From an uncultured Lachnospiraceae bacterium (lineage in GTDB: Bacteria > Bacillota > Clostridia > Lachnospirales > Lachnospiraceae), in the NCBI GenBank assembly GCA_949740745.1, contig CATJIW010000189.1, positions 1 to 39,375 on the forward strand: 39,375 nucleotides of DNA, read 5' to 3'. The notes under the pieces are model-generated. The model did no database searches and had not been told where the DNA came from. It saw only the letters and a list, made by a program, of their open reading frames with translations. The translations under genes were made by a program, and so were the position numbers. Below are positions 23,012-24,958 of this stretch, in pieces; the stretch's first letter is position 1, and the number at the start of each line of letters is the position of its first letter.

Positions 23012-23079
23012 GGACCGAGATTAGTCCCTTTTGGATTTGGCCATCCAATAAGATAATATAAAAGAACCAAAATCGGTTC
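23012..23079. promoter_or_regulatory. Promoter with two flanking 16-bp operators upstream of the first XRE gene
   Basis: GGACCGAGATTAGTCC (23012-23027), TTGGAT-17-TAATAT (23031-23059), GAACCAAAATCGGTTC (23064-23079). Confidence 0.6.
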
Positions 23080-23096
23080 ATAAGCAAGAGGGTGGC

Positions 23097-23351
23097 ATGG
23101 AACAGAAGATCAAACAGGATGAGATCTGCATCGGAAAGAATATCAGACGGATCCGGAAGGAAAAGAAGATCGGGCAGACGGAATTGGCGGCTTTGCTACA
23201 ACTGGAGGATGTTGCGATGACGAGGGAAGCCCTGGTGAAGATCGAGAGGGGCATCCAGCATATACGGGCTTCCCAGCTTAAAGCAATCAAGAATGTGCTG
23301 GGGACGACGTATGAGGAATTATTAGAAGAGGAAGAAAGTTCAAAAAAATGA
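23097..23351 (+). CDS. XRE-family HTH regulator (copy 1)
   Basis: IGKNIRRIRKEKKIGQTELAALLQLEDVAMTREALVKIERGIQHIRASQLKAIKNVLG HTH. Confidence 0.88.
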   Translation: MEQKIKQDEICIGKNIRRIRKEKKIGQTELAALLQLEDVAMTREALVKIERGIQHIRASQLKAIKNVLGTTYEELLEEEESSKK

Positions 23352-23369
23352 CAGTCCGCTGTGGAACTG

Positions 23370-23765
23370 TCATTTTTTGTCAGGCAGGAAGCAGATACCG
23401 CGTTTTTGGCATTCTGCTTCTAGTTCTGCCATAGATTTAACGCCCAGGTTCCGAAACTGTAGAATTTGTTTTTTGGAATAACCAGATAACTGGGACAGAT
23501 AGAAGATCTTCTTTATGGCCAGCGCATTTTTGATTCTCATAGAAATCGGAAGTTCATAAATGGACGGTTCCCTGTCTGGATGGGACAGATACCCCAAAGG
23601 AATGAGTTCCTTCATGATCATTTTAAAGTAGTAACAATCGGGAAATTGTCTTTCCAGAGAGAAGAAGTCGTATGCTTCCAGCTCGGATGTGTTTGTAAAT
23701 CCCAAGTCACAAAGGATTTCTTTTAATCTGGTCGAGATACGCAGTTTTGTAATGGGTTTATCCAT
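23370..23765 (-). CDS. Stand-alone RNA polymerase alpha-CTD-like protein, two helix-hairpin modules
   Basis: ISTRLKEILCDLGFTNTSELEAYDF... and ISMRIKNALAIKKIFYLSQLSGYSKKQILQFRNLGVKSMAELEAE resemble alpha-CTD (LSxRxxNxLxxxxIxTxxELxxxSxxxLxxxRNLGxKSLxE). Confidence 0.75.
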   Translation of the reverse strand: MDKPITKLRISTRLKEILCDLGFTNTSELEAYDFFSLERQFPDCYYFKMIMKELIPLGYLSHPDREPSIYELPISMRIKNALAIKKIFYLSQLSGYSKKQILQFRNLGVKSMAELEAECQKRGICFLPDKK

Positions 23766-23801
23766 GTGTAATTCCTTCTTATGTCTTTCTTTGTGGATTT
23801 T

Positions 23802-23870
23802 GGACTGAAACTAGTCCCATTGTAACATATTAAGAAAATAAGATAAAGAGAAAAGGACTGAAATTGGTTC
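23802..23870. promoter_or_regulatory. Second pair of the same 16-bp operators in the alpha-CTD / XRE copy 2 divergent intergenic region
   Basis: GGACTGAAACTAGTCC (23802-23817) and GGACTGAAATTGGTTC (23855-23870), start-to-start 53 bp versus 52 bp upstream of copy 1. Confidence 0.6.
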
Positions 23871-23889
23871 AAAAATTGGCGATGGGGCA

Positions 23890-24132
23890 GTGGAACAGAA
23901 AGTGAAACAGGATAAAATCTGCATTGGCTGGAACATCAGGAGAATCCGAAAGGAAAAGAAGATTGGGCAGACGGAATTGGTAGCTTTGCTACAGTTGGAG
24001 GATGTTACGATAACAAGAGAGGCCCTGGTAAAGATTGAGAGGGGCATCCAGCATATACAGGTTTCTCAGCTTAAGGCAATCAAGGATGTGCTGGGAACAA
24101 CGTATGAAGAGTTGTTTAGAGAAGAAGTGTAA
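23890..24132 (+). CDS. XRE-family HTH regulator (copy 2, GTG start)
   Basis: Close paralog of 23097-23351 (IGWNIRRIRKEKKIGQTELVALLQLEDVTITREALVKIERGIQHIQVSQLKAIKDVLGTTYEEL). Confidence 0.85.
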   Translation: MEQKVKQDKICIGWNIRRIRKEKKIGQTELVALLQLEDVTITREALVKIERGIQHIQVSQLKAIKDVLGTTYEELFREEV

Positions 24133-24139
24133 GAAATAA

Positions 24140-24232
24140 CGGCCCACCTTTGGGAATGCCACGTTTTGGTATCTCACTTTTAATTTTACCGTAGACTTAA
24201 GCTTTATGTTTCAGAATTTCGGTGGCTTAGTT
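24140..24232 (-). pseudogene. Decayed 3' remnant of a second alpha-CTD-like gene
   Basis: Minus-strand translation ILKHKA*VYGKIKSEIPKRGIP aligns with NLGVKSMAELEAECQKRGIC of 23370-23765; nucleotide similarity and in-frame TAA. Confidence 0.55.
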
Positions 24233-24295
24233 TGTTTGGATAAATATTTAAAAAGAGGAGAACTACTATTATTTCAAAGGAGAAAAGATATAATT

Positions 24296-24958
24296 ATGAA
24301 TAAAATACTAGATAAATTGGGGATTTATGATTTGATAGCCGTTTTGCTATCAGGTATAAGTATAACTATTTTTACAATTTTTTTTGCATATTTCCTTTGC
24401 AATATTCGGTCAATTGTAGTAAACCCTTTTAATATTAATGAAACGCTAGTATTTTTTGTTATAAGCTATTTTATTGGTCTGATTTTTCAAGAAGTAAGTT
24501 CATTTATTGAGAAAAGGTTATTGTTTAGAAATCATGCATTATTAAAAATTGCTTTGAATACGTCAAGACGTTCATATAGTCATTTGACTACAATAGAAAA
24601 AGAACGTATTTATAATTTTGTAGAGATGAAACTCCAACTTATTCCATCCCAAGACAATGATTATGTTATATATAATTACATAAAATTTAGTGTAAAAAGA
24701 TTAGGAGAGACAGCGCGAATTGACAAAAATCAATCAATGAGTGCAATGAGTAGAAGTTTTACATTGTATTTTATAATAATATTTTTAGTTGCAATTTTGA
24801 TGTCTCTCTATAAAAAAGATATTTATTATTTTGAAATTTCCATGGTTTTTCTTTGCTTCAGTATTCTATTTTTGGTAAGAAGTGTTCGCTTTGCTATATT
24901 AAGATATATTTATTTTTTTCGTATTTTTTATTATTATGTAGTATTAAAAGAAGATTGA
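24296..24958 (+). CDS. AT-rich multi-TM membrane protein, unknown function (cargo)
   Basis: RBS aaaggag before ATG 24296; N-terminal TM pair, soluble middle, C-terminal TM pair; strikingly lower GC than flanks. Confidence 0.75.
   Translation: MNKILDKLGIYDLIAVLLSGISITIFTIFFAYFLCNIRSIVVNPFNINETLVFFVISYFIGLIFQEVSSFIEKRLLFRNHALLKIALNTSRRSYSHLTTIEKERIYNFVEMKLQLIPSQDNDYVIYNYIKFSVKRLGETARIDKNQSMSAMSRSFTLYFIIIFLVAILMSLYKKDIYYFEISMVFLCFSILFLVRSVRFAILRYIYFFRIFYYYVVLKED

Follow-up and report, generated by a model that had tools for sequence, protein, structure and literature searches.

A free-standing RNA polymerase alpha-CTD protein beside paired XRE operators in a conjugative element and in agr-like loci of Lachnospiraceae

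The locus and its setting

The stretch of DNA analysed (the window; 39,375 bases) is contig C189 of a 2.9-Mb, 411-contig assembly of an uncultured Lachnospiraceae bacterium. It contains a conjugative element with genes for a MobA/VirD2-type relaxase, a NikA-like protein, a VirD4-type coupling protein and a TraG-type ATPase, as well as a CHAP hydrolase, ParA and a SpaA-repeat surface protein. Flanked by the surface-protein region on one side and the mobilisation genes on the other lies a module (23012-24132) in which two operators, the XRE1 gene (plus strand), an alpha-CTD-like gene (minus strand), two further operators and the XRE2 gene (plus strand) follow one another (Table 1). A bidirectional terminator-like hairpin, with an A-run and a T-run on its two sides, separates the convergent XRE1 and alpha-CTD genes. 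The membrane protein predicted to be encoded downstream of XRE2 gave no Pfam or NCBIfam match; since its gene is absent from the corresponding place in a sister element of the same assembly (see below), it is likely cargo.

Table 1. Positions of the module's genes, operators and predicted promoter elements, of neighbouring features, and of related repeats in other loci
Feature	Position	Strand	Remarks
Surface protein, 1433 aa	17605-21906		with a thioester domain and ten SpaA repeats; 79% DNA identity to the copy in the sister element
Operator 1 (distal), GGACCGAGATTAGTCC	23012..23027		found at the corresponding place before XRE in 26 distinct promoters
Predicted -10 of XRE1 promoter (TAAGAT)	23049..23054	+	21 nt after operator 1, 9 nt before operator 2
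Operator 2 (proximal), GAACCAAAATCGGTTC	23064..23079
XRE1, single-domain HTH regulator, 84 aa	23097..23351	+	HTH_3 31.7 bits (cut-off 23)
Bidirectional terminator-like hairpin	23343..23378		between convergent XRE1 and alpha-CTD genes; RNA fold -17.0 kcal/mol
Stand-alone alpha-CTD-like protein, 131 aa	23370..23765	-	residues 66-117 = alpha-CTD
Operator 3, GGACTGAAACTAGTCC	23802..23817		about -5..+11 of predicted alpha-CTD promoter; centred at -41.5 of predicted XRE2 promoter
Predicted -10 of alpha-CTD gene (TACAAT; extended: TGTTACAAT)	23819..23824	-
Predicted -10 of XRE2 promoter (TAAGAT)	23839..23844	+	21 nt from operator 3, 10 nt before operator 4
Operator 4, GGACTGAAATTGGTTC	23855..23870		at predicted XRE2 transcription start; about -58..-43 of predicted alpha-CTD promoter
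XRE2, 80 aa, GTG start	23890..24132	+	85% identical to XRE1; model pLDDT 90.6
Predicted membrane protein gene, 250 aa, AT-rich	24206-24958		directly downstream of XRE2
TGCAGAAnnYGAC repeats (examples)	L060:5570 and 5590; L066:5836 and 5856; L059:9484 and 9504

The minus-strand gene encodes a stand-alone alpha-CTD protein

The minus-strand product, described as alpha-CTD-like in an earlier, sequence-only reading of this DNA, is a genuine stand-alone RNAP alpha-CTD protein. Its residues 66-117 matched PF03118 (RNA_pol_A_CTD) with 44.6 bits (cut-off 23.8; E=1.1e-11), and a homologue (L009) scored 53.1 bits. Structure prediction, which that reading had named as a check, returned the alpha-CTD fold: with the AF2 model (pLDDT 80.7) as query, the best 50 PDB matches in Foldseek were all RNAP alpha or alpha-CTD, the first being 9zum (alpha-CTD on AT-rich DNA), with 1z3e (Spx/alpha-CTD) also among them. 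Sequence matches to solved alpha-CTDs agreed with Pfam, AF2 and Foldseek. The rpoA models matched only via the C-terminal part and far below their cut-off, the N-terminal assembly domain being missing; weak matches in frames near 325 aa were set aside as host rpoA, not free alpha-CTD.

The residues of RNAP alpha which we take to contact the UP element (R265, N268, G296, K298, S299 and E302) are all present in the window protein (R77, N80, G108, K110, S111 and E114). Across the family, the R265 equivalent is conserved in 30/32 sequences, N268 in 24/32, G296 in 32/32 and K298 in 21/32; S299 occurs as S or T in 30/32, and E302 in all those aligned (31/31). In B. subtilis alpha, alanine replacement of R261 and G292 was not possible (PMC4495994); our alignment places these at the same R and G positions. 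In the alpha-CTD2 paralogues found in relatives (see below), the N268 and K298 equivalents are mostly replaced by H and Q, and therefore not all copies would be able to bind DNA as RNAP alpha does.

Residues 1-65 showed the same helix pattern in the AF2 model as the alpha-CTD half, and hhalign of the two halves gave a weak match (E=0.002); this part is likely a degenerate second copy of alpha-CTD. Homologues outside the element are ∼250 aa long, with an added C-terminal part whose match to alpha-CTD in profile comparison was weak.

The XRE proteins and their operators

The two XRE proteins are paralogues, as had been noted, and both score above the HTH_3 cut-off (24.6 bits for XRE2). The XRE model has a five-helix HTH_3-type fold, closest to those of restriction-modification (R-M) controller proteins and SinR; C.BclI and C.AhdI, both controller proteins, occupied Foldseek ranks 1-4. 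Neither XRE has anything besides its HTH (80-84 aa), both being without a lambda-type C-terminal cleavage/oligomerisation domain and without a ligand domain; on these grounds a reading as SOS-cleavable repressor was rejected.

All four operators share the near-palindromic form GRACY-N6-RGTYC, and the sequence-only reading had placed and spaced them exactly: the paired sites start 52 bp (23012/23064) and 53 bp (23802/23855) apart, with a gap of 36-37 nt between 16-mers. The four sites exceed chance; GRACYNNNNNNRGTYC has exactly four matches in the window, while 100 shuffles gave a mean of 0.77 matches and a maximum of 3, four being reached in 0/100. When the 2.9-Mb assembly was searched with a tighter form of the operator, eight places were recovered, seven of them within the module's two copies and one a stray match on contig C229 that was taken as chance; the reversed-pattern control gave one match. 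No wider XRE regulon was found by this search of the assembly, the sites being essentially confined to the module.

Nearly all close homologues of XRE are preceded by paired operators 48-55 bp apart, whether alpha-CTD is present or not. Ten homologues with the same operators were found in viral contigs (L013-L022); these prophage-like contigs carry the same XRE and paired operators without alpha-CTD (one site in L022 is off by one base), and their divergent genes are others. Paired operators also precede XRE in other Lachnospiraceae genomes (L094, L096-L098, L100, L101 and L104), while in more distant relatives of XRE the sites are different and unrecognised. Because they occur before XRE homologues even where alpha-CTD is absent, the operators belong to XRE as its own predicted sites. 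Among 397 family genomes, XRE was detected at E<=1e-16 in 44, and the alpha-CTD protein as well in only four of the 44, so the XRE switch is wider than its pairing with alpha-CTD. The switch is common to different types of element, with alpha-CTD one of several genes it can face.

Predicted promoters

Comparison of 26 distinct XRE promoters revealed a common order of distal operator, -10-like hexamer (TACAAT, TAAAAT or TAAGAT), a 9-10 nt interval and proximal operator, the distal operator lying 21 nt from the -10 in nearly all those linked to alpha-CTD. The predicted XRE promoter would thus have its distal site at -49..-34 (centre -41.5) and its proximal site at about +4..+19. No -35 was found in XRE promoters, nor any consensus promoter at these places. 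At alpha-CTD promoters, the operator precedes an extended -10 (TGnTAxxxT) by 29-32 nt; this element is conserved at those found beside an operator, with no evident -35. In the divergent layout a second operator would fall at -5..+11 of the alpha-CTD promoter; in the second layout found in relatives, an operator stands before alpha-CTD1 only at about -58..-43, where blocking of the start site would not apply. The earlier suggestion that operators 3 and 4 may control both alpha-CTD and XRE2 is strongly supported by their conserved spacing to both predicted divergent promoters. A/T runs between operator and -10 had a mean of 5.9 at alpha-CTD promoters versus 3.8 at alpha-CTD-less ones, a hint only, as 20 and 5 related sequences were compared.

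A second copy in the same genome and relatives in others

The whole module is also present in the sister element (contig C245; L008:13009-14191), with 81-82% DNA identity. The dN/dS values between the two elements (0.11 for alpha-CTD, 0.03 for XRE1 and 0.07 for XRE2) indicate purifying selection on all three genes; dS was 0.79-1.6, i.e. synonymous sites are near saturation, yet all four operators are retained. The module is kept as a unit, since the flanking cargo differs between the two elements. By promoter sequence, the two XRE1 copies group together and so do the two XRE2 copies, which suggests that the XRE duplication is probably older than the split of the elements. Describing the locus as a duplicated XRE was right as to the duplication, yet what recurs in many genomes is an older and wider unit, a repeated array of XRE and alpha-CTD.

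While a search of genome contigs with a single alpha-CTD sequence found nothing, one with a seven-sequence alignment yielded 26 alpha-CTD loci in Lachnospiraceae-type genomes. The XRE/alpha-CTD pair, the conservation of which the sequence-only reading had made a point to check, was found with the same operators in about 25 other Lachnospiraceae loci. Where sequence was available on both sides, XRE or a remnant of it adjoins alpha-CTD in 20; one of these (L076) has a diverged XRE without this operator. Two more loci, L073 and L074, keep the operators with no recognisable XRE. Relatives show two layouts: alpha-CTD divergent from XRE over two operators, or an alpha-CTD1 that converges with XRE and has a single operator to itself, an alpha-CTD2 being present on the opposite side. 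These same parts make up the array in the window. The two tandem XREs at L076:6806-7512, which adjoin a pair of alpha-CTD genes, are only 32% identical to those of the window. Upstream of these XREs another motif is repeated, TTGCGCC..CTACAGTCCC, which perhaps reflects a second operator specificity.

A response regulator with a LytTR-type sequence start lies near 19/26 loci, and in the one locus whose neighbours were checked by Pfam (L063) these were AgrB, a GHKL kinase and a LytTR regulator. At such agr-like loci there may be a link between the XRE/alpha-CTD switch and peptide quorum sensing. No LytTR-type response regulator was found in the window. An agr-like neighbourhood was seen at L059-L073, L075 and L077-L079, and also at L009, L012, L052 and L053; carriers include named gut bacteria, e.g. 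Eubacterium plexicaudatum ASF492 and Petralouisia muris. Direct repeats of TGCAGAAnnYGAC, 20-21 bp apart, occur upstream of LytTR and alpha-CTD1 genes, and also near genes for predicted secreted proteins; they are candidate LytTR sites of an agr regulon.

The plasmid collection held no relative of alpha-CTD or XRE, and the viral contigs none of alpha-CTD. The phage collection contained one, an unannotated 11-kb faecal record deposited as 'Bacteriophage sp.' (MT836337.1; L012), in which a LytTR/kinase-like pair accompanies XRE and two alpha-CTD genes; the record resembles an agr-type locus from a chromosome more than it does a phage.

Possible action of the free alpha-CTD

Taken together, these comparisons make it very probable that the XRE switch and its operators are real, and quite probable that alpha-CTD is controlled by XRE; the specific action of alpha-CTD is proposed tentatively. 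The reading that we favour, with some reserve, is that of an autoregulated XRE switch on a conjugative element whose output, a free alpha-CTD, would displace that of RNAP. With no -35 in its promoter and an operator whose centre lies at -41.5, XRE would probably activate itself at low dose from the distal operator, judging from position only, and it would shut its own promoter off from the proximal one. XRE on the alpha-CTD start site would block the alpha-CTD promoter, and alpha-CTD would be made when XRE is scarce, e.g. on entry into a new host. Since the search of the genome turned up no further operators, alpha-CTD would be the main output of the switch, with the exception that genes behind XRE2 may be co-transcribed. 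As the residues gripping AT-rich DNA are conserved, the free alpha-CTD would most likely substitute for RNAP's own, either on UP-like AT-rich promoter DNA or on the alpha-CTD-contacting face of an activator. Its first targets would be the T-tract-rich alpha-CTD/XRE promoters themselves. The sequence-only reading had already proposed that such a protein could redirect RNA polymerase or compete for its contacts, which the conservation of the DNA-contact residues makes no more than plausible.

Three actions fit the data, namely displacement of RNAP's alpha-CTD, binding to XRE, and a global decoy. The conserved DNA-contact residues favour displacement and the tight linkage to XRE favours XRE binding, and these two are not mutually exclusive. 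Were alpha-CTD to bind XRE directly, it would act from the 'cro' position as an antirepressor or co-regulator, relieving or redirecting XRE and not competing at other promoters. Its presence beside XRE in almost all loci fits such a role, as does the make-up of XRE (80 aa, one HTH): with neither an SOS-cleavage nor a ligand domain, it must be relieved by some other factor, and small partners that inactivate the repressors of mobile elements are established (PMC10432266). DNA-contact residues would, however, be needless in a pure protein antagonist, and XRE homologues of prophage-like contigs do without alpha-CTD, so direct binding to XRE is considered possible, if rather unlikely. A global decoy lowering UP-element-dependent host transcription in the element's favour would also explain why the UP-element-contact residues are kept, and PMC4495994 describes phage G1 gp67 as blocking the alpha-CTD/UP interaction in S. 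aureus, which makes this contact a known phage target. Nevertheless, loci that are linked to agr and apparently chromosomal also conserve the protein, which speaks for a local regulatory role, and a decoy would have to reach the needed abundance; we consider it improbable.

Truncated or broken copies of the module (L053, L065 and L083) and orphan fragments (L054-L057) might suggest a real XRE switch with an alpha-CTD gene that is passive cargo or a decaying relic, which is very improbable given the dN/dS of 0.11 between the two elements, the conserved promoter and operator, and the occurrence of the gene in about 25 loci. A toxin-antitoxin pair with XRE as the antitoxin, to which weak matches of XRE to antitoxin models might point, was rejected and is given hardly any weight: those matches were all far below cut-off, the genes are divergent or convergent and form no operon, and the partner has the alpha-CTD fold.

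In a broader proposal, which we regard as doubtful, a family of free alpha-CTD-repeat proteins, linked to mobile elements and quorum sensing and switched by XRE, would replace RNAP's alpha-CTD on promoters or activators. A mobile element may in this way steer host transcription with a borrowed piece of polymerase. Phages are known to hit the alpha-CTD of polymerase with inhibitors; a free alpha-CTD of the element's own, under a dedicated and conserved switch, would be a different route. With clean operators, a second copy and an agr-like link in named gut bacteria, the idea is directly testable. A literature search that covered few subscription papers found no XRE/alpha-CTD pair and nothing relevant on a free or orphan alpha-CTD.

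Comparison with known systems

The window protein shares its fold, sequence family and DNA-contact residues with the C-terminal domain of RNAP alpha (PF03118), but it is free-standing, has no N-terminal assembly domain, is encoded on a mobile element and likely has a second, degenerate copy in front. NF005841 (PRK07758), a 95-aa hypothetical protein, is also short, alpha-CTD-like and without the alpha N-terminal domain; the window protein scores below membership of that family (24 bits versus a cut-off of 115).

In lambda, the divergent promoters PRM and PR have an operator at about -42 of the regulator promoter that covers the opposing start; the XRE module is likewise divergent, with a predicted operator at ∼-42 of the regulator promoter and over the opposing start. 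Unlike the lambda regulator, XRE is a single-domain protein without an SOS-cleavage domain, the opposing gene encodes alpha-CTD, not Cro, and the module is carried by a conjugative element instead of a phage. The TF-smORF modules of prophages (Silpe 2023, PMC10432266) resemble it in that a DNA-binding regulator on a mobile element controls a small neighbouring partner gene, but in the XRE module that partner adopts an alpha-CTD fold and is not known to target a repressor.

The closest solved folds to the XRE model are those of the R-M controller (C) proteins C.Esp1396I, C.BclI and C.AhdI. Both kinds of regulator have two operators before their own gene with GACT/AGTC-like half-sites, most tested C proteins reading GACT-tat-AGTC (PMC4824078). 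In C proteins the distal operator activates and the proximal one represses (PMC4041747), and activation followed by repression would be expected of XRE from the shared layout. They differ in that no R-M families were found in a Pfam scan of the neighbouring proteins, that C-protein operators adjoin (about 35 bp in all) whereas those of XRE are 36-37 nt apart, and that the divergent target of XRE is alpha-CTD.
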